DNA of 64,000 bases from Clostridiales bacterium (GTDB taxonomy: Bacteria; Bacillota; Clostridia; Lachnospirales; Lachnospiraceae), in assembly GCA_021204025.1 (NCBI GenBank), contig JAJQAC010000019.1, positions 1 through 64,000 on the forward strand, in the 5' to 3' direction. Below are positions 9,131-54,392 of the stretch, piece by piece. Under the pieces are notes generated by a model. It made no database searches, had not been told where the DNA came from, and saw only the letters and a program-made list of their open reading frames with translations. A program made the position numbers and the translations under genes. Position 1 is the first letter of the stretch. The number at the start of each line of letters is the position of its first letter.

Positions 9131-9152
9131 AAATTTAATTAATTAAAAAATA

Positions 9153-9284
9153 ACTCCGAAGCGGCATTTCCTAAAGTTCTCTGGTATCAGACAGCCAGGG
9201 AAATGCCGCCAGAATTCATTGATTGATTTCTCAGGGTATGGCGGGAAACGGCTGTGCCTCCCACATTTGGAAAGGAGACATTTG
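9153..9284 (+). promoter_or_regulatory. Moco riboswitch (molybdenum cofactor RNA motif)
   Basis: The leader matches the known Moco RNA motif by eye: ACTCCGAAG, a long stem GCGGCATTTCC against GGGAAATGCCGC closing a GTTCTCTGG loop region, then GCCTCCCACATTTGG followed by AAAGGAGACATTTG. The last segment places a Shine-Dalgarno sequence inside the aptamer's 3' part, so cofactor binding can hide it. This fits control of the Moco synthesis genes that follow. Confirmation would be a covariance-model hit to the Rfam MOCO_RNA_motif. Confidence 0.85.
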
Positions 9285-9347
9285 TTGAATATCGATATTC
9301 TGGTACGGGCGATGGTCGTGTATACGGTTATACCGGTATCAGGATGA
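9282..9347 (+). CDS. Possible TTG-start leader peptide under the riboswitch
   Basis: The ribosome site AAAGGAG at the end of the Moco riboswitch is followed by TTG TTG and an open frame of 21 codons ending in TGA at 9345-9347. The real mobAB start is 56 bases further on with its own site, so the riboswitch-controlled site would otherwise serve no gene. It could be a leader peptide that couples translation to the operon, or a remnant of a lost first gene. No homology is recognised. Confidence 0.3.
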   Translation: MLNIDILVRAMVVYTVIPVSG

Positions 9348-29065: not shown

Positions 29066-29376
29066 ATCTGTTAATAAGAGAAAAACCTGTGAGGAAGAAT
29101 AGTAACCGGCGAAGGTCAGGCCGCAGAGAGTCCCGGATGGTGGAATCGGGGCGCCAGGATCACCGGTGAATGGACTTCTGAGGGCGACTTTGAAGGGAAG
29201 GGTATATTTTCCTGGTAGAGGCCGACGGGAACCCCACCCGTTATCCATCGGGGCGCGTATGATAGTACGTGTAGTGAGCGGATGTCTTTCAAAGAGACGT
29301 CAATTTGGGTGGTACCGCAGAAGTGAAGTATATGCTTTTGTCCCATTGTATTGTGGGGCAGAGGCATTTTTTATTT
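29066..29376 (+). promoter_or_regulatory. T-box leader, tryptophan specifier
   Basis: The T-box core TGGGTGGTACCGCAG is at 29306-29320. Stem I shows AGTA on its 5' side and GAA followed by TGG at 29171-29173 on the 3' side, the normal specifier position; TGG is the Trp codon. A terminator stem (TGCTTTTGTCCCA against GTGGGGCAGAGGCA) with a T-run ends near 29376. Uncharged tRNA-Trp should allow read-through into the transporter genes. Confidence 0.9.
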
Positions 29377-32475: not shown

Positions 32476-32541
32476 CGGAATATTCTGATCTTATAAACGA
32501 GCCATGGCGCAGAGAAAAGGAACTGTGTCATGGCTCAATTA

Positions 32542-32965
32542 TCATGCGCAAGGAGAAGCAAAACTTTTTAATATCAGCATGGTGTCATGCTTCGACACTT
32601 CAATCAGGTTGTAAGGCGCATTTCTCAGCGACCAGTCAAATAACGTACCGCGGCAGACTCTGAGAATCGTAGCGGAAATTTCTTCCGCGGTATATTGATC
32701 TGAGAAAACCTTTTCGTTGATTCCTCTTTGCGCCAGATGATATAAAATTTTATTTAATTTCCGGTCGTCGGAAACATATTTTCCACTGGTATTTAAGTGA
32801 GTTTCCATGACTTTAATGAAAACTTTACTGCCGATTTCCACCGCTCCGCTTACCTGCAGATCGATAATATCCATGATGCAGATGCATACATCTTTTGACA
32901 GGTCTAAGTCATCCAGCCATCCGTCAAACTCCAGGTATTTTTCCATCAGAACCTCTTCTTTTATT
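32542..32965 (-). pseudogene. C-terminal fragment of a TetR-family regulator
   Basis: The frame reads as the ligand-binding half of a TetR regulator (KVFIKVMETHLNTSGKY, SDQYTAEEISATILRVCRGT, LFDWSLRN) but the N-terminal helix-turn-helix is absent. The frame runs on upstream into unrelated residues where the neighbouring enoate reductase fragment begins. It cannot bind DNA and is a remnant. Confidence 0.75.
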
Positions 32966-33436
32966 GATGGCGATAACGTAATCGAGGCCTGCCAGTATCT
33001 GTTAAAGGAAAAAGAGGCGGGGCAGACGAACGTCATTATCGGCGGCGAACTTACAGGCGTCGAGATCGCTTACGATCTGGTCAACCACGGAAAGAAAGTG
33101 GCGATTCTCGAAATGAAGGATACGATCCTCGAAGGAAAATTCTTATCAGAAGCCAATTCCAATATGTTAAGACAGATTATCAAAGATTACGATATCCCGG
33201 TATATACGGGCGCGTCTGTGAAACTGATCAACGAGAACGGCGTGGAATTCGAGTATCAGGGCGAGACAAGGGTTGTCGCGGCCGATACCGTGATTACAGC
33301 GACCGGTTACATCTCACAGGTGACCATTCCGGATGGTTTGAAGGATCTGCCCGGTGTGCATATCATTGGCGACGCAAATAAAGTGGGCAACTCTTTTTCG
33401 TCGTATGCAGAGCCGGGTAAGAATTTTTGCGGCTAA
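32966..33436 (+). pseudogene. C-terminal fragment of a 2-enoate reductase-like flavoprotein
   Basis: About 156 residues of the NAD(P)H-binding end of an old-yellow-enzyme/2-enoate reductase: NVIIGGELTGVEIAYDLV, GKKVAILEMKDTI, then VITATGYISQ and VHIIGDANKVGN. The N-terminal FMN barrel and Fe-S domain (about 500 residues) are missing. It abuts the TetR fragment head to head, so one deletion removed the middle of a divergent pair. Note GGELTG in place of the usual GGGLTG. Confidence 0.8.
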
Positions 33437-33486
33437 TGTCGCACTTCGGGTCTGCGCTCGGCATCGGCCGGTGCTAAACGGTTGCA
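33436..33486. repeat. Intergenic repeat element, module B
   Basis: ATGTCGC, then a GC-rich spacer and GTGCTAAACGGTTGC. The order and spacing resemble the second half of the element at 11950-12075 (TTGCTAAACGTGTGC). Confidence 0.35.
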
Positions 33487-33548
33487 TGTATGATTCAAAA
33501 AATTCCAGAAAATAAAACAAATTACAGTTCGAGCATTACCGCATTATC

Positions 33549-33594
33549 TTCCTGCAGGTTTACAATGCACTTATTTTCTGATAAAATGCAGGAA
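33549..33594 (+). promoter_or_regulatory. Promoter of the HipA-like gene flanked by an inverted repeat
   Basis: TTTACA (33559-33564) and TAAAAT (33582-33587) are 17 bases apart. TTCCTGCA (33549-33556) and TGCAGGAA (33587-33594) flank them as an 8-bp inverted repeat, a layout suited to self-repression. Confidence 0.6.
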
Positions 33595-33667
33595 AAAGGA
33601 CTTCATAGTTACGGAAATCGGTGTTTGCCCAGGTGAGAAGGGTTATGGTAAACTCAGAGGTATAGGT

Positions 33668-35440
33668 ATGATGCAATATGACTTAATGCATAAGAATGAC
33701 AGATGCGGCAGTATTCTGTATGATGAAAATACAGGAAAGATTACCGATTATCATGATGCCGGAAATGGCTTATCTCCGTTCCTGGGAAACAGTAATTTAA
33801 AAAAGATCGCAAAATGGTGGGAGATGCGTGCGATACCGGCGTCCCGCGCTTCTTTGCGGGATATCTTAAAAAATGCCGGCTGTTTTACACCGGGAAATTT
33901 CCTTGCAAAAAATCTCGCACTCAGCATATCGGATACGTACTGGATCTGTCCATTCAATGCTCATTTATCTTATGAAGATGTAAAATTAACAAATTTTGCG
34001 ATTTTTCACGACAGGAAGATCCCTTATCATAACGCCACATCCTATGATCCGAACGCATCACTGGGCGGACAGATGGAAAAATACTGGGAGATCCGTGCGG
34101 GAAATCCGATATTAGTAAAAGTCAGCAGCCGCTATTTTGGACAGCAGTCTCTGAATGAAGTGTTTGCTTCCCGTATTCATGAAAGGCAGGATAACAGTAT
34201 TCCCTATGTAAAATATTATGCGTCGATTGAGGCGGATCATTCTGTTTCATGCAAATGCAATGCTTTTACTTCGGAAAACATAGAGTTTATTTCTGCTTAT
34301 GAGATCATGGAAAGCAGTAAGATACCAAATAGCATAGCATTAAACGATGCTTATACGAATCTCTGTGCGAAACAGGGAATCGATCGAGGGATGATGCAGG
34401 ACTTTATGGATTATCAGACACTGACCGATTTCATTATCAGCAATACCGATGAACATTTTCTGAACTTCGGAGTCCTGCGAAATCCGGATTCAATGGAGTT
34501 GATCGGTCCGGCGCCCATTTTTGACTCCGGGAACAGTATGTTTTACTCGGAAGAACGCAGAATTCCATATACCAGAGCGGGAATATTGGATAGAAAGATT
34601 ACCGGTTTTTACGAAAAAGAAGAAAAACTTTTAAAACGGGTACAAAACCGCAACATTGTAAAAGCCGATCTGCTCCCATCGCCGCAGGAAGTGAAGGAGT
34701 TTTATGCGCAGGCAACGCTTCCGGAATGGAAAGCGGATATCATCAGCCGGAATTATGCAATCAAATGCGAACTTTTCCGGGAATTTCAACACGGAAAAAC
34801 GATTTCATTTTATCAGGAAACACAGGCCGAGAGAGAGATTGTCCGGAAAGAAAAGATTAAAAATCCCGTATCTCAGAAATTTATCATGGTATGCGGACTT
34901 CCGGGGACCGGTAAAACAATCCAGGCAAATGAGTTACAGGAGGCATATGTGCGGCGTGGATACCGTTCGGTCATTGCGGAACAGTTTTATGATACGGATC
35001 GCGTCATCCATGATATGGCAGATATCCTGGATCGGAGACGAGTGTTAGACGCTTTACCGGCAATACCCGGCTATAAAAAGACAGTCACAATCATTGACCT
35101 GGATGATATCCGAAAAGAATTGTATGAAAAGGTTTCTGTGCTGCTGATTCGGGACGACCTTTTGTTCCTGATTGCAGAAGCACGTGTAAAGACAGCCTTA
35201 AAAAGTGGATGCACCGTGATCTATAAGGCTGACAACCTGACAAAAGGGAGCCGGGAACGGTTCTTAAATATTGCTCATGAGGTTGGAGTCACGGACAAAG
35301 AACTCCATATCATGCATGGGAATCCAGAGTATTCAGAAACCGGCATACCACAGAAACAGTTGGCTCAGATGGCAGAAGAGTTCCGGGAAAACTATCCTTC
35401 ATTCGACGAAGGGTGGACGGATCTTGTGGAACACGACTGA
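33668..35440 (+). CDS. HipA-like kinase fused to a P-loop (AAA_33/PNK-like) domain
   Basis: A 590-residue protein. Residues 1-390 show a HipA-type kinase plan: a Lys in NPILVKVSS (K151), a catalytic loop ISNTDEHFLNFG with D261 and N266 at HipA spacing, and a DFG-like Asp in PAPIFDSGNS (D286). Residues 400-590 hold a separate P-loop fold: Walker A GLPGTGKT (410-417), TIIDLDDIRKELY near 475, and CTVIYKADNLTKGSRERFL, which resembles nucleotide/polynucleotide kinases. HipA proteins phosphorylate proteins such as glutamyl-tRNA synthetase and cause growth arrest. No HipB-like gene is adjacent. I infer a toxin, stress or phage-defence role; the real target is unknown. Confidence 0.7.
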   Translation: MMQYDLMHKNDRCGSILYDENTGKITDYHDAGNGLSPFLGNSNLKKIAKWWEMRAIPASRASLRDILKNAGCFTPGNFLAKNLALSISDTYWICPFNAHLSYEDVKLTNFAIFHDRKIPYHNATSYDPNASLGGQMEKYWEIRAGNPILVKVSSRYFGQQSLNEVFASRIHERQDNSIPYVKYYASIEADHSVSCKCNAFTSENIEFISAYEIMESSKIPNSIALNDAYTNLCAKQGIDRGMMQDFMDYQTLTDFIISNTDEHFLNFGVLRNPDSMELIGPAPIFDSGNSMFYSEERRIPYTRAGILDRKITGFYEKEEKLLKRVQNRNIVKADLLPSPQEVKEFYAQATLPEWKADIISRNYAIKCELFREFQHGKTISFYQETQAEREIVRKEKIKNPVSQKFIMVCGLPGTGKTIQANELQEAYVRRGYRSVIAEQFYDTDRVIHDMADILDRRRVLDALPAIPGYKKTVTIIDLDDIRKELYEKVSVLLIRDDLLFLIAEARVKTALKSGCTVIYKADNLTKGSRERFLNIAHEVGVTDKELHIMHGNPEYSETGIPQKQLAQMAEEFRENYPSFDEGWTDLVEHD

Positions 35441-35525
35441 GAAAAGCTATCCATTTTTATCGCCAGAACAAATATTGATCTGCATTCTGTTTATCGTATC
35501 ATTAAGTGAATCAGACCCGGTAACA

Positions 35526-35572
35526 AAAAGCTCCGATGAGCCAGAAAAACCTGACTCTCCGGAGCTTTTGTA
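35526..35572 (+). terminator. Terminator after the HipA-like gene
   Basis: AAAAGCTCCG (35526-35535) pairs with CGGAGCTTTT (35560-35569) over a 24-base loop, followed by TG. Confidence 0.7.
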
Positions 35573-35592
35573 ATCGTGTTTTATGCATGCAT

Positions 35593-35623
35593 ATGCGCTG
35601 CATCAGTGGCGTATATCCGTTTA
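35593..35623. repeat. Short intergenic repeat (copy 2)
   Basis: ATGCGCTGCATCAG then ATCCGTTTA; closely matches 18541-18571. The end overlaps the stop codon of the small minus-strand gene. Confidence 0.4.
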
Positions 35624-35752
35624 GAAACCGCGGTTTACAATGTAAGAAAACCAAAGGACGCTGTAAACGGTAATTCCGGCCACTACGACAGAAATCGCAT
35701 TACCAACAAATTCACTGTTTTCCTTCCAAAAAGTATGTATATTCTTCAACAT
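35621..35752 (-). CDS. 43-residue membrane peptide (copy 1)
   Basis: A small gene below usual ORF cut-offs. It starts at ATG 35752 with TAAGGAGG eight bases before and encodes 43 residues beginning MLKNIHTFWKENSEF, followed by one hydrophobic segment (about 17-38) and a short NRGF tail. A paralogue with the same length, the same N-terminal plan and the same kind of leader is at 54073-54204. Shared start, ribosome site, length and leader argue that it is a real gene. The function is unknown. Small membrane toxins of type I systems or regulatory peptides are options. Confidence 0.72.
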   Translation of the reverse strand: MLKNIHTFWKENSEFVGNAISVVVAGITVYSVLWFSYIVNRGF

Positions 35753-35945
35753 AATCGTTACCTCCTTAAATTATGAGTTCGATCTGCCTGACGGCAGGTT
35801 TCATGGTTTCATCGGTAAGGTGCCCTGCGGGTAAAGTGCCCTGCGGGGATTTCCAACCGACACCCATAGGATACAGCAAACGGAAAGAAAAATTCAGGTG
35901 TTATATTGAGGAAAAAGAGGGTGATATTGACTTAAAATCCATAGA
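35753..35945 (-). promoter_or_regulatory. Conserved leader of the 43-aa peptide (copy 1)
   Basis: Plus-strand ACCGACACCCATAGGATAC (35856-35874) is identical in the copy at 54308-54326, and the outer 65 bases up to ATATTGACTTA align without gaps. Read on the minus strand, GTCGGT can pair with ACCGAT downstream, and a hairpin (CTGCC-GTCA-GGCAG) lies before the ribosome site. The arrangement suggests a structured 5' RNA or a complex promoter region. Confidence 0.55.
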
Positions 35946-36020
35946 TTCTTCCAGTTTTCAAAAAATATTACGATTGAAATAAACCTGAGAAAATTTAAAA
36001 TTTTAATTAAAGAAAAGATA

Positions 36021-36044
36021 CAGGTTCTCAGAATTCAGAACCTG
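36021..36044 (+). repeat. Stem-loop before the sugar ABC operon
   Basis: CAGGTTCT and AGAACCTG with an 8-base loop. A possible promoter (TTGAAA, 16 bases, TAAAAT) lies just before it, so it would be in the 5' leader. No T-run follows. Confidence 0.4.
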
Positions 36045-36102
36045 AACGACTGGAATCAGTGGTTAGGTGAACCCGGAAGAGAGAAAAAGAAGGAGGGAAA
36101 AC

Positions 36103-37608
36103 GTGTCGGAATATGTTCTTGAATTAAAGGGTATTACTAAGATTTTCCCGGGCGTCAAGGCGCTGAACAACGTGCAGTTCCAGTTGCTGCCCGGTGAAGT
36201 TCACGCGTTGATGGGAGAGAATGGTGCCGGTAAGTCCACATTTATCAAGGTAATTACCGGCGTACATAAGGCAGAGGAAGGCGAGATATTTCTTGACGGA
36301 GAGAAGGTAGACTTCAAGGGGCCGAAGGATGCGCAGGAGGCAGGTATCGCTGCTGTTTATCAGCATCCGACTTCCTATCCGGATCTGACCGTGGCAGAAA
36401 ATATTTTTATGGGTCATGAAATCGTGAAGAACCATATGATCCAGTGGGGAGCCATGAACGCGGAGGCAAACAAACTGCTGCAGAAGCTGGACGCGGACTT
36501 TGATGCGAAAGCGGAGATGGGAACCCTGAGTGTCGCGCAGCAGCAGATGGTAGAAATCGCGAAAGCCATATCGACCAATGCCAGAATTATCATCCTGGAC
36601 GAGCCGACCGCGTCACTGACAAGAGCCGAGTCGGAAAAGCTCTATAAACTGGTTGATCAGCTGAAGGAAGATGGGGTTTCCATTATCTTCATATCCCATC
36701 GATTTGAGGATATGTACCGTCTGGCTTCGCGTGTAACAGTATTTCGTGACTCCCAGTATATCGGTACGTATCCGGTAGACGGGATTACGAATGCAGATCT
36801 GATCAAAGCAATGGTTGGACGGGAGATTACTACGATGTATCCGAAGCCAAAGGTGGAAATCGGCGATGAGGTATTGCGGATCGAACATTTCTCCATGCCC
36901 GGTTATTTTAAGGATGTCTCATTTAACGTGCGGGCAGGGGAGATCCTGGGTATGACCGGACTTGTTGGCGCGGGACGCACTGAGGTAGTGGAAGCAGTTT
37001 GTGGTATCACGCAGGTGGAGGAAGGAAAAGTTTATCTGAATAGGGAAGAGATTCATATCCGGAAACCGATTGATGCTATGAAAAAAGGAATAATCCTTCT
37101 CCCAGAGGATCGCCAGAAGGAAGGATTGATTATGAGCTGGGGACTCGGACGCAATGTTACGCTCCCCATCATGGGCAAATATGCAAAGCGGGGCCTGAAT
37201 GATAACAAAAAGGAGCGCGAAGTGTCGCGTGACCTTCTGGAGTCTGTAGATACAAAGGCGGTCGATATCTTCCAGCCGGCTAGTTCGCTTTCCGGCGGCA
37301 ATCAGCAGAAGGTTGTCGTGGCAAAGGCGCTGGGACAGGAGATGAAGGTTGTTATCATGGATGAGCCGACGAAGGGTGTCGACGTTGGCGCAAAAGCCGA
37401 GATCTATGCAATCATGGGCGATCTCGCAAAACAGGGCTATGCGATCATCCTGATTTCCTCTGAGATGCCCGAGATCCTGGGCATGGCAGATCGGATTTTT
37501 GTCATGTGCAACGGCAGAAAGACCGGAGAGCTCATGAGGGAAGAGGCGACGCAGGAGATTATTCTTGATCTTTCTATGGAAAAAGCGAGCGGAAAGGAGG
37601 CGAGGTAA
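36103..37608 (+). CDS. Sugar ABC transporter ATPase (RbsA/RhaT-like)
   Basis: About 501 residues with two ATPase halves. First Walker A GENGAGKST with LSVAQQQMVEIAKAIS; second half has LSGGNQQKVVVAKALG and VIMDEPTKGVDVGAKAEIY. The start is GTG at 36103 with AAGGAGGG before it, rather than an upstream ATG. The carbohydrate-uptake type 2 layout fits ribose, galactose, rhamnose or AI-2 importers. The nearby rhamnose genes favour L-rhamnose or a related deoxy sugar. Confidence 0.88.
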   Translation: MSEYVLELKGITKIFPGVKALNNVQFQLLPGEVHALMGENGAGKSTFIKVITGVHKAEEGEIFLDGEKVDFKGPKDAQEAGIAAVYQHPTSYPDLTVAENIFMGHEIVKNHMIQWGAMNAEANKLLQKLDADFDAKAEMGTLSVAQQQMVEIAKAISTNARIIILDEPTASLTRAESEKLYKLVDQLKEDGVSIIFISHRFEDMYRLASRVTVFRDSQYIGTYPVDGITNADLIKAMVGREITTMYPKPKVEIGDEVLRIEHFSMPGYFKDVSFNVRAGEILGMTGLVGAGRTEVVEAVCGITQVEEGKVYLNREEIHIRKPIDAMKKGIILLPEDRQKEGLIMSWGLGRNVTLPIMGKYAKRGLNDNKKEREVSRDLLESVDTKAVDIFQPASSLSGGNQQKVVVAKALGQEMKVVIMDEPTKGVDVGAKAEIYAIMGDLAKQGYAIILISSEMPEILGMADRIFVMCNGRKTGELMREEATQEIILDLSMEKASGKEAR

Positions 37609-38601
37609 ATGAAAAAGGATTCCATGTTGAAAAAGATTACAGGATCTCGTGAGGCGCTGCTTGCACTGATTCTGATCCTGCTGTTTATTGTCGTAACAGG
37701 TTTTAATTCGTCTTTCCTGACCCCGTCTTCTCTGCAGCAGCTGATTAAGAACAATGCAGTAACGATGGTAATGGCACTGGGAATGTTGTGTGTCATGCTG
37801 GTCGGTGGAATCGACATTTCGATTATGTCTACGCTGGCCTTATCTGGTATGGCGATCGGCATGCTACTGAAATACGGTCACATATCCGGCACAATTCTTC
37901 CATTTGTGATTACGATGGCGATCGGCACAGTTTGTGGGCTGGTGGTTGGACTTGTGGTTTCACGGGTGGACGTCCCGCCGATCATAGCGACGATGGGATT
38001 TATGTATATCTATCGGGCGATGGGTTATCTGATTTCCAACGGCGGCGAATGGGCGAGCGCTTCGGCACTTGGAAGTTTCAGTGACTTCGCGACGTCAAGT
38101 TTTCTCGGTATCAACTGTGTGATCTGGATCGTGATTGTGTGTTATGCGTTTTTCTTCTGGTTTATGAAGTGGACGAGAACCGGTCGTAAGATTTATGCAG
38201 TCGGCAGCAATCCGGAGGCTGCGGATGTTTCCGGTATCAACGTAAGAAATATTAAACTTCTGGCATTCACCATCATGGGGCTCCTGGCTGGCTTAGGCGG
38301 TGCGCTGCAGGTAGGAATTTATGCATCGGCTATGCCGAATATGCAAAAAGGCGGAGAAATGGACGTGATTGCAGCCTGTGTAATCGGTGGTGTCAGCATG
38401 AGTGGCGGCAGAGGAAGCGTGATCGGAACGCTGCTGGGTTCCCTGATCCTTGCAACGATTGTAAAAGCACTGCCTCTGATTGGGATTGATTCTCTGGCCC
38501 AGAATACATTCAAGGGTGTCCTGATCCTGGTCGTAGTTGTCGTCAATGTCATCCTGCAGCGTATCTCTGACAGGAACGCACTCAAAGGAAGGGAGATGTA
38601 A
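37609..38601 (+). CDS. Sugar ABC transporter permease 1 (RbsC-like)
   Basis: A 330-residue permease with about eight to ten hydrophobic segments. Family text: MALGMLCVMLVGGIDISIMS, GLVVSRVDVPPIIATMGFMY, and a loop with AVGSNPEAADVSGINVRN. It starts right after the ATPase stop. Works as a pair with the next permease. Confidence 0.88.
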   Translation: MKKDSMLKKITGSREALLALILILLFIVVTGFNSSFLTPSSLQQLIKNNAVTMVMALGMLCVMLVGGIDISIMSTLALSGMAIGMLLKYGHISGTILPFVITMAIGTVCGLVVGLVVSRVDVPPIIATMGFMYIYRAMGYLISNGGEWASASALGSFSDFATSSFLGINCVIWIVIVCYAFFFWFMKWTRTGRKIYAVGSNPEAADVSGINVRNIKLLAFTIMGLLAGLGGALQVGIYASAMPNMQKGGEMDVIAACVIGGVSMSGGRGSVIGTLLGSLILATIVKALPLIGIDSLAQNTFKGVLILVVVVVNVILQRISDRNALKGREM

Positions 38602-38603
38602 TC

Positions 38604-39611
38604 ATGGCTGGAAAATCTGGAAGAACGATCAATAATATACCGGAAAACCCGGTTCGGAAAATGATATTCAGCTGGGAAGGCATTCTCTTTCTTCTGCTGA
38701 TTGCAATCAATATTTTTTGCTCCATGTATTCGGAATTTTACAATATCAGCAGCCTGCTGCGGCAGATGCCCGTATATCTGGCGGAAGTATTTCTGATGCT
38801 CGGTATGGCTTTCATCCTGGTGATGGGCGAGATTGACATTTCAGTGGGTTCTATCGTATGCCTCTCAGCTACGCTTGCCTGCCTGTCGTCCAATGCGGGA
38901 CTTCCTTTTCCGGCAGTGTTCCTGGTTTCGCTTCTTGTGGGAACTGCCTGTGGGATCGTCAATGCTCTGATTCTGACAAATTTTCAGGAGTTGCCTCCGA
39001 TGATTGTAACGCTGTCGACACAGATCATCTTCCGAGGCTTGGCAGAGATCATACTGGGAAGCGGTGGGTCTGTGTCTGTGTCGAACACAGCCGGATTCCG
39101 GGCGATCGCAGGTAAGGTCGGCCAGGTACCATATATCCTGTTCTTGGTGCTGATTCTGGCTGTCATTTATGCAGTTGTTCTGGGAAAAAGTACTTTTGGA
39201 CGCAGTGTATATGCGATCGGGACAAACCGAACAACAGCATATTACTCGGGCATTCCGGTGCAGAAAATACGCTTCGTCATCTACACCCTGATGGGAACGT
39301 TGTGTGGGGTGTGCGCGATGTTCCTGATTTCAAACTCCTACGGCGCGAACACAACAACCGGTGAGAACTTCGAGATGGACGCGATCGCAATGGCTGTGTT
39401 CGGAGGAATCATGTCAACAGGAGGAAGGGGAAATATCGCCGGAGGTGTGATCTCCGCGATTATCATCGTCTGTCTGAGAGTCGGTCTTGGACAGAGAAAT
39501 GTAAACGCACAGGTCATCCTGCTGATTATCGGTTTGCTGTTGATCTGTACTGTTGGTCTGCCGAATCTGGTAAAAAATATGAGACAGACCCGGAAGGTTA
39601 AGAAAAACTGA
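38604..39611 (+). CDS. Sugar ABC transporter permease 2 (RbsC-like)
   Basis: A 335-residue permease homologous to the previous one (FILVMGEIDISVGSIVCLSA, AIGTNRTTAYYSGIPVQKI). Two distinct permeases in a row are typical of rhamnose and AI-2 importers. It starts two bases after the upstream stop. Confidence 0.88.
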   Translation: MAGKSGRTINNIPENPVRKMIFSWEGILFLLLIAINIFCSMYSEFYNISSLLRQMPVYLAEVFLMLGMAFILVMGEIDISVGSIVCLSATLACLSSNAGLPFPAVFLVSLLVGTACGIVNALILTNFQELPPMIVTLSTQIIFRGLAEIILGSGGSVSVSNTAGFRAIAGKVGQVPYILFLVLILAVIYAVVLGKSTFGRSVYAIGTNRTTAYYSGIPVQKIRFVIYTLMGTLCGVCAMFLISNSYGANTTTGENFEMDAIAMAVFGGIMSTGGRGNIAGGVISAIIIVCLRVGLGQRNVNAQVILLIIGLLLICTVGLPNLVKNMRQTRKVKKN

Positions 39612-39630
39612 GTATTCAACCTGCTGTAAG

Positions 39631-39652
39631 CCGTATCCGGGAAAGGGTACGG
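39631..39652 (+). repeat. Stem-loop before the binding-protein gene
   Basis: CCGTATCC and GGGTACGG pair over a 6-base loop. Such hairpins often adjust binding-protein mRNA levels relative to the permease genes. There is no T-run, so it is not a standard terminator. Confidence 0.45.
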
Positions 39653-39693
39653 ATGCAAAATACAAAAATAATACTACAAGGAGGATTTATTTT

Positions 39694-40833
39694 ATGAAGA
39701 AAAAAATCATCAGTGCGTTACTTTGCGCAGCAATGGCGACATCCCTGTTAGCGGGCTGCGGCAGTTCATCCGCAGGTTCATCCAGTACAACGACGAGCGC
39801 CGCTACGGAAGCCGCTGCATCAACGGAAACAGCAGCAAAAGCCGGTGAATCAGCGGGGAGCGCGGATACGGATTCATCTTCCGGTTCTTATGCGGGACAG
39901 AAAATTGCCCTGGTCGGTAAGTCTGCAGGAAACGCGTTCTTTGAGATCGCGGCTGCCACTTTTGTATCAACCGTCGAGTCAGAAGGAGGCACGGTAGACA
40001 TCGTATATCCGGAGGAAGCGACGGCAGATGCTCAGATTAAGGTACTCGATAATCTGATCTCTCAGGATTATGACGCGATCTGTCTGTCTGCGAATGATAC
40101 AAACGCACTGCAGGCAAAACTGGAAGAAGCCATGGATGCCGGTATCGCTGTATCCAGCTTTGACTCCGCTCCAAATGCGGACAGCCGCCAGATTTTCGTG
40201 AATCAGGCTGGCACAACCGCAGTTGCTCAGGCACTGGTAGACGCAGTTTATGATATTACCGGCGGGGAAGGTCAGTGGGCAATTTTGTCTGCTACTTCGC
40301 AGGCTTCCAACCAGAACGCCTGGATCGACGCGATGAAGGCGATCATCGCGGCAAATGATCAGTATGCGAACCTGGAACTGGTTGAGGTTGCATATGGTGA
40401 TGATGAGGCTCAGAAATCTACGGATCAGACAGAAGCGCTTCTGCAGAATTATCCGGATCTGAAAGTAATCTGTGCTCCGACAACCGTCGGTATCGCCGCT
40501 GCTGCAAAATACTTGCAGGATAACAGTGCAAGCTGCAAACTGACCGGTCTTGGCCTTCCGTCCGAAATGGAAGCCTATACCGGTGATGGTGATGACTACA
40601 GCTGCCCATATTTCTATCTGTGGGATATGGAAGGACTGGGGACGCTGAGCGCATATGCGACGATGGCCCTGGTCAGTGGGGAAATCACAGGAGCTCTTGA
40701 CGAGACCTTTACTGCCGGCGATCTTGGCGAGTATACCATCACCGCGGCGGATGACGGCGGTACGGAAATTGTCCTTGGCCTGCCGCTCGAATTTACACCT
40801 GAGAATGTCTCTGAGTATGCAAAACTGTATTGA
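39694..40833 (+). CDS. Sugar-binding lipoprotein (RhaS/LsrB-like)
   Basis: A 379-residue lipoprotein; lipobox LLAGC, then a Ser/Thr/Ala-rich linker, then a periplasmic-binding fold (KIALVGKSAGNAFFEIAAAT, SFDSAPNADSRQIFVNQAG, GEGQWAILSATSQASNQNAW). Closely related in layout to the second binding protein at 44460. It delivers sugar to the two permeases. AAGGAGG lies about eight bases before the start. Confidence 0.9.
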   Translation: MKKKIISALLCAAMATSLLAGCGSSSAGSSSTTTSAATEAAASTETAAKAGESAGSADTDSSSGSYAGQKIALVGKSAGNAFFEIAAATFVSTVESEGGTVDIVYPEEATADAQIKVLDNLISQDYDAICLSANDTNALQAKLEEAMDAGIAVSSFDSAPNADSRQIFVNQAGTTAVAQALVDAVYDITGGEGQWAILSATSQASNQNAWIDAMKAIIAANDQYANLELVEVAYGDDEAQKSTDQTEALLQNYPDLKVICAPTTVGIAAAAKYLQDNSASCKLTGLGLPSEMEAYTGDGDDYSCPYFYLWDMEGLGTLSAYATMALVSGEITGALDETFTAGDLGEYTITAADDGGTEIVLGLPLEFTPENVSEYAKLY

Positions 40834-40917
40834 TGAAATTTTGTCTTTCACTCGCCGCATCGGGCGGATGCAGCGTCAACCGCAAAATTTCCATATCCGC
40901 CTGTATGTATAGAATGC

Positions 40918-40950
40918 GGGACGGCGCTGTAAAGGCTCCGTCCCTTTCGA
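40918..40950. terminator. Terminator between convergent genes
   Basis: GGGACGG and CCGTCCC pair over a 13-base loop, followed by TTTCG. Lies between the binding protein and the convergent kinase gene. Confidence 0.65.
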
Positions 40951-40989
40951 TAAACCTGAAGTGGAAAGAGATTATTGTGCATAAGCAGA

Positions 40990-42801
40990 TCATTGACAAT
41001 GCAAAAGAGCCGGGAGACGAATCTGCGTGCTGGTTCCCTGTCCTTTTTGGCTTTCATAGGACAGACCATAGCGTTCCCCATAGAGAAGCTGCAGCCGCGC
41101 GTGTGTGTTATATACGCCAATATTGCTGCCGCTGCCTTCCGGCTGTTTGTCCCCTGAGAGAATGGAGTCGATCTGCTCTTTGCTCATGCCGACTCCGTCA
41201 TCAGAAATCAACAGGATCAGATCATCGCCCTCCGGCCATCCGGTGATCAGGATGGTGCCGGATTTTTCCGGCTTTTCCATAATACCGTGCTGAATACAGT
41301 TTTCCACGATTGGCTGGAGCGTCAGCCTGGGGATTTCGTAATCTTCCATGAAGTCCGGCACATCGATCATAAACTGGATCCGGTTTTCGTAGCGCATATT
41401 CTGGAGCTGTACATAGAGAGAGACATGTTCCAGTTCATCTTTTATGACACCGTTCATGTTCTTGCGGCTCAGGGTCAGTTTGTAGAATCTGGATAGTGCC
41501 TGTATTGCCTGTGTCACTTCCGTCCTTTTTTCCGTCTGCGCGAGCCAGTTGATCATGTCAAGTGTGTTATAAAGGAAGTGTGGATTAATCTGAGACTGCA
41601 AAGCATTGAATTCCTTCAGCTTCAGTTCTTCCGCAGTACGGATCTGTTGATCCAGTAAACGGTTAATTTCGTCAGACATATAATTATAGGTGGTCACTAG
41701 ATCACCGATCTCGTCGATGGATGGTTCGGCGTTGTCGATGCGCTCAGGTCGATCATTGTGAACATGCTGCATTTTCCGGCTCAGACTTGCAATCCGCTCA
41801 GAAATGGATCGTGAGAGGAGAACAGAGAACAGGAAAGCCAGGATAAAGAAAGCGATGTACATACCGATAAACTGGAATACGAGGGTTCTTCCTTTTTTTA
41901 CCAATCCGGCTGAGGAAAGGATCGATACCAGATGCCAGTCTGTATCGGGAATCGAATAATATCCCACGTAAATGTTGTCACTCAGATAAGCGCGGGTCGT
42001 ATAAATATTGACGCCGCCGACAAGCTCACTTAAAGTCTCATTGGACATATAGTAGGCACCGGACAGGGAAGAGTCTGAGACAGATACGACAACATCACGG
42101 TCGTTGAGGATATAGCAGGCGCTGTTATCCGTATTCATATTGTCGCTCAGAATCGAGGATAATCTGTCCTGAGAAAAATAAACCGCCAGATAAGCCTGAC
42201 CTTCGGTACCGCTGTAAAGTCTTGTGATATAGGCAAGCTGTCCACGCGTGGTATCTTCTGTGACAGACAGATAGAGGCTGGGACAGAGAAGAGAGTCAGC
42301 GCTGGTGGAACTGAAAATACCATACCAGTAAGTGCCGGTGACAGTGGAAAGAGGAGAAAAAAGCGCAGCTTCGGTATCCACGTCAATCAGAAAGGATAAC
42401 TTACCGTCAACATAGAGTTTGATGTCCGTAATGAGGTCTCCGTCTTTTTGAGCTTCCGCTTCCTCAACGAGCTGTCTGACCTGTCGGGCAAGCATGGTAT
42501 CAGAAAGGATATAACCATATTCCGGCAGAAGCCAGCCGGCAGCATGGCTTTCTTCCAGTGCGAGAGAAGCATTCCTGACCTGTGAAAGTACATTTTCGAT
42601 GGAACCTGCGGTCTGCCCGGCGAGAGACTGTTCTTCCAGAATGGTTTCGGACACGACAGAATCATATAAATGATTGTACAGGAAAAAAGACAACACAATC
42701 GTCAGAAGAAAGATCAGCAGTCCGTGGGAAATCAGTAGTTTATACAAAAGTCTGATATCGTAAAGATAATTATGCCAGATTTTTTTGAAAAAATATTTCA
42801 T
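40990..42801 (-). CDS. YesM-like sensor histidine kinase
   Basis: A 603-residue membrane kinase. The first membrane segment is near residues 23-43, then a large extracellular sensor domain (about 45-300), a second segment near 305-325, a HAMP-like linker, and the His kinase domain with QINPHFLYNTLDMINWLAQ. The ATPase end has LISDDGVGMSKEQ. Stop and start overlap with the response regulator gene by four bases. It probably senses the sugar with help of a binding protein. Confidence 0.9.
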   Translation of the reverse strand: MKYFFKKIWHNYLYDIRLLYKLLISHGLLIFLLTIVLSFFLYNHLYDSVVSETILEEQSLAGQTAGSIENVLSQVRNASLALEESHAAGWLLPEYGYILSDTMLARQVRQLVEEAEAQKDGDLITDIKLYVDGKLSFLIDVDTEAALFSPLSTVTGTYWYGIFSSTSADSLLCPSLYLSVTEDTTRGQLAYITRLYSGTEGQAYLAVYFSQDRLSSILSDNMNTDNSACYILNDRDVVVSVSDSSLSGAYYMSNETLSELVGGVNIYTTRAYLSDNIYVGYYSIPDTDWHLVSILSSAGLVKKGRTLVFQFIGMYIAFFILAFLFSVLLSRSISERIASLSRKMQHVHNDRPERIDNAEPSIDEIGDLVTTYNYMSDEINRLLDQQIRTAEELKLKEFNALQSQINPHFLYNTLDMINWLAQTEKRTEVTQAIQALSRFYKLTLSRKNMNGVIKDELEHVSLYVQLQNMRYENRIQFMIDVPDFMEDYEIPRLTLQPIVENCIQHGIMEKPEKSGTILITGWPEGDDLILLISDDGVGMSKEQIDSILSGDKQPEGSGSNIGVYNTHARLQLLYGERYGLSYESQKGQGTSTQIRLPALLHCQ

Positions 42802-44345
42802 GCCAGAAGTTTCTCCCTGTACTCTGTCGGTGATAATCCTGTCGCTTTTTTGAAACTTTTACTGAAATAACCGCCGTCGAGATAGCCGATTCGTGAAGAA
42901 ATATCAGAAACACGGATGCGCGGATCCAGAAGGAGCTGTTTTGCTTTTCCCATGCGGTATTCGGTCAGATACTGATTCAGTGTTTTACCAGTCTCAGTTT
43001 TGAAAACAGTGCAGGCATAGGCAACTGACAGACAGGCGTAATCGCTGATGCTTTTGACTGACAGACTGGCATTGGAATAATTTTTGTAAATATAATCTTT
43101 CATTAACGTGACAGGGCTGCTTTCCTGTGATGAGACAGACGTTTTTTCATTCAGAAGGGTCAGTTCAGCGATCAGCATCTCGTGCAGTTCCTTTAAAGTA
43201 TTGCAGGAGAGAATCCGATCCCAGAGTGGCTCTGAATCATCCATGCAGGAGATCATCCGGATACGATAGGCCTGTTCGATTGCGATGAAAAGTTTGAAAT
43301 AGAGATCTTTGACCGCACTGGGCAGAAGAGAATGAGATTCTCTGAGATATTCATACAGAGAAACGGCTGTCTGTTTCGCGCCTTCATTGTCCAGCCGGGA
43401 GATCAGTTCACTGAAATGAACGTATTCCTGCTCCATATATCCGGTATCGGTTGAAAATGTATTTTGTTCGGATAAGATACTATTATAATCACAGAAAAAA
43501 CTTCCCTGCATCAGTATCGCGGCCTGGTTATAAGATTCATAGACACGCTCGATTCCACGCACTGAAGATCCGACCGACAGAAAAAAGGAGCAGAGTGGGG
43601 TAATCCGTTCTTTGAGGAAATCGGCAAGTTTCATGATAAAAGTGCGATCCCGGATCGTTTCTCCATAGAGGCAGAAAACAAGGACGGAGTCATATTTCAG
43701 CGCATAGATACAACCGCAGGATTTTTTGCGGCATTTATCTTTCAGATCTGACAGAACCGGTGTCAGTTTATCGTCATCCAGACTTGCAAAAGGAGGTATG
43801 GCGGACAGCATCAGGATCGAGAAACAGGTATTGGCGTCAAAAGGCAGATACAGTTCCCGGATCAGTTCCAGAACATTTGCACGGTTTGCGCCGAGAGGTC
43901 TTGTCAGTGCCAGTGTGAGCTGAGAAGAGTTTTCCTGTTGGCGAAGATATTCGGAATATTGGTTTCGTTCCATCATTTCGTGGTAGCGGACCGCTTCTGA
44001 GACAGCTGCGATCACTTCCTGATTATTGATCGGTTTTTCCACGTAGCTGATTGCTTTCAGGCGGATTGCCGCACGCAGATAATCCTTGTCAGAGTAGCCA
44101 CTCATGAAAATAATGCTTGTATTTGGCAGAAATTTTCGTATACGTTCCGCAAAGGTAACACCGTCCATACGCGGCATACGGATATCTGTCAGAACAATTT
44201 CGGGAGAATGAATCCGTGCGAGCTCCAGTCCCTGTACGCCATCCTCCGCTTCCAGTACCTGATGGATCTTAAGGGCTTTCCAGTCGATACTGTTTAACAA
44301 TCCTTTTCTGGTGATGACCTCATCGTCGATCAGCAAGATTTTCAC
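42798..44345 (-). CDS. YesN-like response regulator with AraC DNA-binding domain
   Basis: A 515-residue regulator. Start GTG at 44345, with AAGGGAGG eight to ten bases before; an upstream frame extension is not needed. The receiver domain has ILLIDDE at the N-terminus and VLTDIRMPRMDG around D55, SYVEKP at the end. The C-terminal AraC domain reads LSVAYACTVFKTETGKTLNQ, RMGKAKQLLLDPRIRVSDIS, then IGYLDGGYFSKSFKK. It forms a pair with the kinase and is divergent from the second binding protein. Confidence 0.9.
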   Translation of the reverse strand: MKILLIDDEVITRKGLLNSIDWKALKIHQVLEAEDGVQGLELARIHSPEIVLTDIRMPRMDGVTFAERIRKFLPNTSIIFMSGYSDKDYLRAAIRLKAISYVEKPINNQEVIAAVSEAVRYHEMMERNQYSEYLRQQENSSQLTLALTRPLGANRANVLELIRELYLPFDANTCFSILMLSAIPPFASLDDDKLTPVLSDLKDKCRKKSCGCIYALKYDSVLVFCLYGETIRDRTFIMKLADFLKERITPLCSFFLSVGSSVRGIERVYESYNQAAILMQGSFFCDYNSILSEQNTFSTDTGYMEQEYVHFSELISRLDNEGAKQTAVSLYEYLRESHSLLPSAVKDLYFKLFIAIEQAYRIRMISCMDDSEPLWDRILSCNTLKELHEMLIAELTLLNEKTSVSSQESSPVTLMKDYIYKNYSNASLSVKSISDYACLSVAYACTVFKTETGKTLNQYLTEYRMGKAKQLLLDPRIRVSDISSRIGYLDGGYFSKSFKKATGLSPTEYREKLLA

Positions 44346-44459
44346 ATGATTTTCCTCCCTTTCTGGTATTATTTTAGTAAATTGGGGTATCAAAGTCAAT
44401 GAAAATTGTGCAGTTGTGAATAAATGTGAATGATGATATACTGAAAATTGGAGGAAATG

Positions 44460-45488
44460 ATGAAAAGACAAATCATAATGCTGGTTTTAGCAGCACTTTT
44501 ACTGACTGGCTGTGCTGCGCAAAGTGGACGAAATATCGTTAAGGAAGATTCTGCGGGGGTTTACGCAATGGTGATCAAGTCAGAAGGGAATACCTATAAT
44601 GATCTGATGACCCAGGGTTTTCGGGAGGTAATTGAGGGCGCTGACGGCACCTGTGTGATTGCAGGCCCCACTGAAATTACGGCGGAAGCGCAGATTGAGA
44701 TTTTACAGGAGCTGATCGAACAGGGAGTAGATTCGATTGCGGTGGCTGCCAATGACGAGGATGCGCTGAGTCCTGTGCTGCAGGATGCTATGGGGCAGGG
44801 AATCTGTGTTTCAACGGTGGATTCGGATGTGAGTAAGCAGGCGAGACAGGTATTTGTTAATCAGGCGGCCACGGAGGAAATCGCGCGGAAACTGGTAGAA
44901 GCAGTCTATGAGATGTCCGGAGGTTCTGGACAGTGGGCGATTCTTTCAGCCGGCAGCCAGGCAACAAATCAGAACACCTGGATTCGTGCGATGCGTTCGG
45001 TTATGGAAGAAGAAACCTATCAGGATCTGCGTTTGGTGGATATTGTTTACGGCAATGACGAAATTGAAACATCGAAAGAAAAAACCCTCGAACTTCTTGA
45101 AAACTATCCGGATCTGAAAGTAATCTGTGCACCTACCGTGATGGGACTGGCAGCGGTTGCGCAGGTACTGGAGGAACAGACGGATGCAGATGTAAAAGCT
45201 ACCGGTCTGGGGCTGCCGTCTTCCATGAGCGCCTATGTGAAGGGAGATGATGCGATATGTCCATATTTTTATCTTTGGAATCCCATCGATCTGGGAAGAA
45301 TGAGTGGTTACGTCTCTCTGGCTCTGAAGGAAGAAATCATCACTGGTGCAGTAGGGGAATCTTTTGAGGCCGGTGACATGGGAAATTTTGTAATCCAGGA
45401 GAATGAGTTCGGTGCTTCTGAGGTCATTGTTGCTCCCCTGATCCGGTTTGACGCTGAGAATATTTCGGAATGGCAGTATTTGTTCTGA
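44460..45488 (+). CDS. Second sugar-binding lipoprotein, possible sensor partner
   Basis: About 342 residues; lipobox LLLTGC and a very short linker, unlike the long linker of the paralogue at 39694. The binding fold is similar (VFVNQAATEEIARKLVEAVY, GSGQWAILSAGSQATNQNTW, NYPDLKVICAPT, DAICPYFYLWNPIDLG). It is divergent from the two-component genes, separated by about 114 bases. Clostridial XylFII-LytS-type systems use such a binding protein as the sensor's ligand-binding part; that is my inference here. Starts at 44457 and 44460 are both possible. Confidence 0.85.
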   Translation: MKRQIIMLVLAALLLTGCAAQSGRNIVKEDSAGVYAMVIKSEGNTYNDLMTQGFREVIEGADGTCVIAGPTEITAEAQIEILQELIEQGVDSIAVAANDEDALSPVLQDAMGQGICVSTVDSDVSKQARQVFVNQAATEEIARKLVEAVYEMSGGSGQWAILSAGSQATNQNTWIRAMRSVMEEETYQDLRLVDIVYGNDEIETSKEKTLELLENYPDLKVICAPTVMGLAAVAQVLEEQTDADVKATGLGLPSSMSAYVKGDDAICPYFYLWNPIDLGRMSGYVSLALKEEIITGAVGESFEAGDMGNFVIQENEFGASEVIVAPLIRFDAENISEWQYLF

Positions 45489-45590
45489 TATTGCTGTATA
45501 TTTTACGGAATGATTTAGCCTGCGTTTGTAAGTTTTACCGATTACATTTATGCGTTTATGAGAAATGGAGCATAAAAGTGAGATAAAAAA

Positions 45591-54204: not shown

Positions 54205-54392
54205 AATTGTTACCTCCTTTATGATTCCTGGATCCATCGACCTTTCGACGGTTTTTGGGATTTATCGGCAGATATCCGCAAGGCACATTGCCCTGTGGGT
54301 ATTCTCAACCGACACCCATAGGATACCGGAAAATACAGGAAACTATCAGGTATGATCTTGCGGAAAAATACGGCAATATTGACTTATAAACC
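54205..54392 (-). promoter_or_regulatory. Conserved leader of the 43-aa peptide (copy 2)
   Basis: Contains the identical ACCGACACCCATAGGATAC block (54308-54326, plus strand) and the same outer 65-base stretch. On the minus strand, GTCGGT pairs with GCCGAT, a changed but still pairing partner compared with copy 1. A CAGGGCA/TGCCTTG hairpin lies inside, and CCGTCGA/TCGATGG forms a hairpin before the ribosome site. This looks like a folded RNA leader kept in both copies. Confidence 0.55.

Follow-up and report, generated by a model that had tools for sequence, protein, structure and literature searches.

The question raised by this locus is what two similar minus-strand cassettes, here called copy 1 and copy 2, encode and what controls them. 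Both lie in a 64,000-nucleotide stretch of DNA from a Clostridiales bacterium of the family Lachnospiraceae (contig JAJQAC010000019.1, positions 1 to 64,000; the window), part of a genome of 3.04 Mb in 91 contigs (G000). Each holds a 43-codon gene with a good ribosome site behind a similar upstream region. The pair had been proposed in a first-pass annotation to be a new small-peptide family with an RNA-like leader, either riboregulated or of the type I toxin kind. The new family of predicted membrane peptides stood, and its leader was found to be partly structured, but the conservation proved to be mainly that of a promoter, whose elements are a direct repeat with a 21-bp period and a -10 box. 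In the favoured reading, given about even odds as a whole, each cassette would be an independent gene whose product is a membrane peptide with one helix, an effector that would be controlled by a regulator of the AraC family. The parts of the cassettes, all on the minus strand, are as follows.

35752-35621 (-): copy 1 peptide gene, 43 codons and 43 amino acids (aa), core MLKNIHTFWKE followed by a predicted hydrophobic helix (open reading frame, ORF; nonsynonymous change, pN, below synonymous change, pS, against the relative L028)
35761..35767 (-): copy 1 ribosome binding site AAGGAGG, 8 bases before the ATG (sequence)
35784..35797 (-): copy 1 leader hairpin 2, CTGCC-GUCA-GGCAG, with a GNNA-type tetraloop (covariation)
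35810..35862 (-): copy 1 leader hairpin 1, arms 35862-35856 and 35816-35810, two CCCGCAGGGCAC-type units inside (covariation, folding)
35868..35873 (-): copy 1 -10 box TATCCT; TATAAT, TATTAT, TATCAT or TATTCT in relatives (alignment of 15 members)
35903..35931 (-): copy 1 presumed activator half-sites, GTCAATAT at 35931-35924 and CTCAATAT at 35910-35903, spacing 21 bp (alignment, predicted)
35525..35569 (-): intrinsic terminator 3' of copy 1 (terminator scan)
54204-54073 (-): copy 2 peptide gene, 43 aa (ORF, selection test)
54238..54251 (-): copy 2 leader hairpin 2, GAAA loop, one of five pairs non-standard (covariation)
54263..54314 (-): copy 2 leader hairpin 1, arms 54314-54308 and 54269-54263 (covariation, folding)
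54320..54325 (-): copy 2 -10 box TATCCT (alignment)
54355..54383 (-): copy 2 presumed activator half-sites, GTCAATAT at 54383-54376 and a degenerate copy at 54362-54355, spacing 21 bp (alignment, predicted)

A family of short peptide genes

The 43-codon gene with its full ribosome site was confirmed at both places, and the block reported as identical between them, ACCGACACCCATAGGATAC, occurs exactly twice on the plus strand of the window. When the whole genome was searched with a 17-base probe from the shared block (at most 2 mismatches), four places matched, compared with one for a reversed control; beyond the window's two, these were copy 3 (C72:99110) and copy 4 (C62:41810). All four are followed by a 43-aa ORF that starts with ML(K/N)NI and carries FWKE at positions 8-11. 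Three further loci in two metagenome-assembled genomes were found by a scan of genome contigs, and members were present in 8 of the 60 genomes around G300 (itself counted among the 60). Further copies in related genomes, suggested in the first pass as a check, were thus obtained: 15 intact members of 37-43 aa in nine genomes, with four in G000, four in G299 and one in each of seven others. When 294 genomes around G320 were screened, under stricter filters, with the promoter model described below, strong matches (at least 30 bits) came from the same eight genomes only. A four-sequence profile run against 299 genomes of the family gave no convincing member beyond the genome of origin and weak matches in four other genomes. 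Set aside were a ninth match around G300, in G332, which sits within a 1080-residue frame; weak peptide matches L015-L018 and L035, for their long open frames and partial matches; and L020, which has the N-terminal motif only. The weak matches L023, L025 and L027 were left out of the member count. Two degraded loci were also excluded from the 15. L036 (G318, C18:6173-6256) is a remnant of the hydrophobic part of the peptide, without promoter or start. L099 (G300, C40:32863-32943) is a decayed second cassette beside tRNA-like sequences, which retains the promoter and start-site hairpin and whose ORF is no longer membrane-like past the core. No relatives were found on viral contigs searched with the peptide profile A5 or on plasmids and phages searched with the copy 2 peptide, and a phage or plasmid module was rejected on that ground.

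The peptide ORF is a real gene under protein-level selection. In all eight member pairs tested pN was lower than pS (pN/pS of 0.01/0.14, 0.14/0.45, 0.09/0.33, 0.13/0.33, 0.07/0.33, 0.18/0.46, 0.23/0.48 and 0.21/0.64). Residues M1, N4 and F8 are invariant in 15/15 members and W9 nearly so (alignment A5, in which the L032 row lacks its last residue), and the remaining positions vary but stay hydrophobic. Hydropathy over the best 19 residues was 1.5-2.27 across the 15. For copy 2, AlphaFold2 returned one helix over residues 2-40 (pLDDT 85, pTM 0.46, weak at the C-terminus), and the peptide is predicted to be a single hydrophobic helix. The members scanned had no match above cut-off in Pfam or NCBIfam and none in PADLOC, and only weak matches in PHROGs (E of 0.019 or worse), and a known protein family was rejected on these scans.

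The surroundings of the copies were compared with those of their relatives. Copy 1 and L028 are orthologous, with flanks 81-90% identical, differing intervening genes and a cassette of 74% identity, and the cassette at this locus thus evolves faster than its surroundings. Broad synteny was seen between copy 4 and L011; copy 2 and L012 have one gene in common, some kilobases off; and copy 3 and L026 share the cassette alone in the stretches compared. Among the flanking genes scanned, those beside the cassettes were varied. A terminator called by a simple rule lies 3' of 8 of the 15 members, the match at L011 being short and doubtful. As separate observations, window positions 32481-45496 (13 kb), compared with L038, have, the cassette aside, little DNA-level counterpart at the orthologous place in G299, between flanks of 81-90% identity; and the 590-aa protein adjoining copy 1 (33668-35440, +) weakly resembles HipA at its C-terminus and also has a weak match to AAA, a pairing that is out of the ordinary.

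The shared block and its probable regulator

The outer block, described in the first pass as aligning gap-free over 65 bases, is in fact longer: in the 15 members 83 columns, from AAGTCAATAT through GGTTG, aligned without internal gap (the L033 row begins three columns late). Within it the half-site GTCAATAT matched the sequence 21 bp on with an identity of 0.65 over 22 promoters and 0.68 over the 15, compared with 0.40 or less at other shifts from 12 to 39. The second half-site is clearly degenerate in the peptide members, here named MLKNI after their first residues, and near-perfect in the promoters of the methylglyoxal synthase gene (mgsA) and of G413; the spacing is 22 in G148 and G809. 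A -10 hexamer (TATCCT, TATCAT, TATTAT, TATTCT or TATAAT) begins, in all 15, 58 bases from the first half-site's G, and 57-59 bases from it in the others seen. No conserved -35 box was evident by eye. With a promoter model of this region (R1), the four peptide genes were the only strong sites in the genome of origin (68.5-79.9 bits; next 14.4; 150 of 1925 candidates scored).

In AraC-family activation two direct half-sites are typical, the second reaching the -35 region. According to PMC4760080, AraC bound at araI1-araI2 recruits RNA polymerase. The half-sites seen here are arranged likewise: they are direct, some two helical turns separate them, and the second reaches the -35 region. Judged from the alignment, most of the shared "leader" is promoter, at 35852-35934 in copy 1, and the GTCAATAT repeats are most likely the site of an AraC-type activator.

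Weak matches to the promoter model at L093/L135, L136, L138-L140 and L101 (21.8-27.6 bits) and at L103, L104 and L096 (19.3, 18.7 and 15.9) were judged chance on reading, and neither these nor L095, L105-L109, L112 and L113 were picked out by the box rule (half-site repeat, the box, with a correctly placed -10), even when relaxed. At L093 (G172, C5) the tetranucleotide CTGT is repeated some twelve times in a row, in what looks like a coding region. One site of 23.4 bits, L137 (G545, C1:3062549-3062617, -), passes the box rule with a weaker box, GTCAAAAT followed by GTTAAAAT 21 bp on and TATACT 57 bases from the G; it precedes a gene whose product carries the N-terminal domain of glycosyl hydrolase 31 and, if real, hints at a sugar-related regulon.

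At the L013 locus the divergent neighbour of the peptide gene is an AraC-family protein with a cupin sensor domain. This regulator is present in 7 of the 9 peptide genomes (the genome of origin and six orthologues at 59-82% identity), directly divergent from the peptide gene in five (G300, G311, G312, G320 and G321) and within 1 kb of it in two (G000 and G299). The gene in G000 (C62:42655-43503) is separated from the peptide gene by one for a histidine-phosphatase-family protein; it lies on another contig, C62, and hence outside the window. In G172, of the same genus and without the peptide, there is a regulator relative of 25% only.

Regulators were searched for in overlapping sets of 397, 295 and 395 genomes, of which 4, 4 and 14 gave a match under the chosen cut-offs. 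At 16 of the 26 regulator loci examined the box was found together with a -10 at the proper distance, compared with 0.25 expected from shuffles that preserve single-base content only; the rule was fixed after the first loci were seen, and in a fairer test the box was found at 4 of the 11 loci first viewed after it was set. On a tree of 30 regulators the box label needed 5 changes (shuffled mean 10.3; 0/500 as low), and all 16 box rows fell within one group of 21 (support 86/80), as did the unlinked regulators of G316 and G318. An AraC-family regulator is linked to the site or co-occurs with it. From these associations the AraC/cupin regulator is the likely activator, and most likely one AraC-type regulator reads the common promoter design of the peptide genes. 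As a side observation, a DUF554-type membrane protein adjoins the regulator in G413 (L082, divergent side of the AraC gene; recognised by reading) and another lies downstream of the peptide in G300 (L045:5485-6393; Pfam match).

Seven of the 16 boxes precede MLKNI peptides and nine precede other small ORFs, as listed.

G265, G692: 29- and 28-aa peptides, divergent from the regulator
G413: 57-aa protein, directly downstream of the regulator
G148, G809: 58-aa proteins
G231: 57 aa
G209: 67 aa, ORF read by eye
G198: 70 aa
G107 (L152): a tandem pair of small ORFs that resemble each other, behind a single box promoter, read by eye

For G209 and G107 an ORF in a better position, chosen by eye, stands in for the one that the script had returned. 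Four of the small proteins outside the MLKNI branch (A10; picked for likeness, with the G209, G107, G198, G265 and G692 proteins left out) are not membrane-like (best hydropathy 0.78-1.03), nor are those of G265 (-0.09) and G692 (0.35). The profile of the four matched the MLKNI profile over 25 columns with a probability of 76%, E of 2.3e-5 and 4% identity; the score was 25.7, compared with 11.9 or less in 40 column shuffles. A core of the form ~FWKENSExIxxG may link the membrane and non-membrane forms. A second box of the same promoter type precedes mgsA in G318 (L100) and G316 (L102); among the upstream 420 bases of five housekeeping mgsA copies the promoter was found before none.

These neighbours bear on the main rival explanation, feedback of the ANR kind, which is considered unlikely though the best placed of the alternatives. 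The AraC regulator would induce a small protein that binds back and restrains it, much as AggR-type activators are restrained by ANR (AraC negative regulator) proteins, and the MLKNI peptides would be membrane-anchored forms. The constancy of the pairing speaks for it: a small ORF adjoins the regulator in 16/16 box-bearing loci despite a range of 28-70 aa and strong sequence divergence, and a possible core common to the membrane and non-membrane forms fits as well. In the enteroaggregative Escherichia coli case, as given in PMC4038620, the Aar gene is activated by AggR, which Aar down-regulates. For the MLKNI branch the explanation is disfavoured by the number of copies and by the predicted membrane helix. 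Four copies are present in the window genome and four in G299, in each case three of them far from the regulator, which feedback would not need, and a hydrophobic helix in 15/15 members would be odd for a cytosolic partner.

The leader RNA

The pairing of GTCGGT with ACCGAT in copy 1 and with GCCGAT in copy 2, claimed in the first pass, is present, and the compensatory changes it implied were found in both hairpins. In copy 1 the transcript is inferred to start at the 5' arm of hairpin 1, at about 35862-35860. In the seven long leaders (alignment A4) the arms of hairpin 1 are farther apart and hairpin 2, with its GNNA loop, then follows; over the two helices 97.6% of cells are paired and four pairs are changed on both sides, one in hairpin 1 and three in hairpin 2. 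None of 500 shuffles reached the cells paired, the double changes or the covariation score, and 13/500 reached the pair types. The clearest compensatory case is L013, where CAACGGT/ACCGTTG replaces TGTCGGT/ACCGATG. In the eight short-loop members (L099 included) hairpin 1 has six pairs and a 4-base loop with 45 of 48 cells paired, one pair being A-U in four and G-C in three, and sliding of the arms lowers pairing to 48% or less. The shuffle controls were moderate for this set: the covariation score was reached by 11/500, the percentage paired by 44/500 and the number of doubly changed pairs by 407/500. The RNA structure is real but local, and its folding support is mixed.

The interior of hairpin 1 holds two, one or no CCCGCAGGGCAC unit, and L026 and L028 lack most of its content. 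Six of the 15 members have a short leader with the start-site hairpin only and a strong ribosome site. In E. coli, 5'-terminal stem-loops reportedly protect the transcript. Because the number of interior repeat units varies in this way, hairpin 1 may fit such a protective 5' stem-loop better than a ligand pocket. No Rfam family reached its gathering score within the window cassettes, the best weak match in the copy 1 region being 18 bits (37.8 needed) on the opposite strand, and a riboswitch or known RNA family was rejected for lack of such a match. Elsewhere in the window two known leaders exceed the Rfam gathering score, a molybdenum/tungsten cofactor riboswitch (9142-9293, +; 79.5 bits) and a T-box leader (29080-29348, +; 107.8 bits).

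Two functions proposed in the first pass are both less likely than an AraC-controlled effector peptide. Riboregulation, in which the leader would sense something and control translation and the first codons (TACTTTTT) would mask the ribosome site in long-leader copies, is rather improbable. It would account for the two covarying helices, and in several long-leader minimum-energy folds the ribosome site does pair with the first codons while some lose hairpin 1, so that alternative folds are possible; it went unsupported because six relatives have short leaders, without hairpin 2. The Rfam result, with nothing near for copy 1, and the variable content of hairpin 1, unlike that of a ligand pocket, also speak against it. 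A toxic membrane peptide restrained by an antisense RNA, as in type I systems, is slightly more doubtful still. The peptides resemble such toxins (features as in PMC7667032) in being small, in having one hydrophobic helix, in occurring several times in a genome and in the structure at the 5' end, but antisense promoters were not enriched: sigma70-like antisense sites over leader, gene and 3' side numbered 4 in 15 members, compared with 7.3 expected (a consensus scan, with which an antisense RNA is still compatible). On that count the claim went unsupported. Neither window cassette has an antisense site inside it, the plus-strand sites found lying upstream; and the activator-type promoter, the strong ribosome sites and the blanks in PADLOC and among the viral contigs, plasmids and phages searched point the same way. 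Least probable of all is an exported peptide that would serve as a quorum signal, sensed in turn by the AraC regulator. It would fit the closeness of the regulator gene to a peptide gene in most peptide genomes, and the quicker change of the cassette than of its flanks at one locus, but the flanking genes scanned include no recurring exporter or processing gene and the cupin domain of the regulator is of the small-molecule-sensor type.

Proposed mechanism and comparison with known systems

In the favoured reading, that of an AraC-controlled membrane effector peptide, the AraC/cupin regulator would sense a small molecule, perhaps a sugar or other metabolite, bind the two half-sites (GTCAATAT and its degenerate copy) and activate the small-protein genes. 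In the MLKNI branch one regulator would switch on all the scattered copies, up to four, at once. The mRNA would begin with a hairpin that may shield its 5' end and is followed by a strong ribosome site, and the peptide would insert into the membrane by its C-terminal helix and, much as SgrT, AcrZ or MgtS do, probably adjust a transporter or some other protein of the membrane.

Several observations weigh against this reading. The role as transporter modulator is proposed by analogy, and the flanking genes, which differ from copy to copy, point to no target. The box is missing at 10 of the 26 regulator loci (G316, G318, G136, where the contig ends, G067, G192, G177, G232, G202, G090 and G179). 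The best regulators of G316 and G318, with 37% and 35% identity to the query, adjoin neither peptide nor box. A single origin of the box label was recovered in 0% of 200 bootstrap trees. The box could also be that of a different regulator, one found in the same genomes as the AraC protein. The promoter precedes mgsA in just two of the nine genomes found with that enzyme type, the box being lacking there in the other seven, and mgsA as a general partner was rejected accordingly. Minimum-energy folds of single leaders retain the hairpin 1 core (at least 3 of 5 core pairs) in 9/15 only; it is lost in c3, c4, L011, L026, L031 and L034, of which c4 and L031 form the core pairs with a probability of about 0.3-0.7 and L034 carries a mismatch.

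A wider proposal can be put forward tentatively. A module scattered in this bacterial family may consist of an AraC/cupin clade, each regulator paired with a small protein that changes fast while its promoter, with GTCAATAT and the 21-bp spacing, stays fixed. In one branch the small protein would have become a membrane peptide with up to four copies under one regulator, beside methylglyoxal synthase in two genomes. This would be a Gram-positive system in which metabolites trigger small proteins, and these in turn adjust membrane transport or the regulator itself. Annotation readily overlooks genes of such a length, and the regulator clade, the fixed promoter signature and the candidate common core offer a handle by which they may be found via their control region rather than their own sequence. 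If the proposal is true, a regulator of the small-molecule-sensor type is tied to membrane peptides in this bacterial family. Among the open-access papers searched, none was found on AraC regulators with small membrane proteins, small peptides, small proteins or small ORFs in Lachnospiraceae, Clostridium or Firmicutes.

Among known systems, the ANR proteins (Aar of enteroaggregative E. coli), compared by description, resemble the family in being very small and encoded under an AraC-family regulator, and the promoter layout and linkage seen here are consistent with activation by such a regulator. PMC4038620 gives ANR members a length of 39-80 aa and describes them from Gram-negative bacteria; the window peptides differ as predicted hydrophobic single helices in four copies. 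SgrT, AcrZ, MgtS and similar proteins of 28-55 aa act by binding to a transporter in the membrane, whose activity or stability they alter (PMC10710835); the present family differs from them in having no Pfam or NCBIfam match above cut-off among the members scanned and in its paralogues, of which a genome can hold as many as four. Type I toxins (TisB, Hok and BsrG, with the related TimP) share its size, single hydrophobic helix and, in the long-leader clade, structured 5' leader. The hydropathy of the 15 members and the one predicted helix place the peptides among small hydrophobic proteins of that kind, but the family has an activator-type promoter and an antisense promoter signature not above chance. 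With the AraC/XylS sites (araI1-araI2) the likeness lies in two direct half-sites upstream of the -10 and a poor -35 box, and a 21-bp period is known for AraC half-sites. The half-site here, however, is GTCAATAT, and most of the targets found are small-protein genes rather than a sugar operon.
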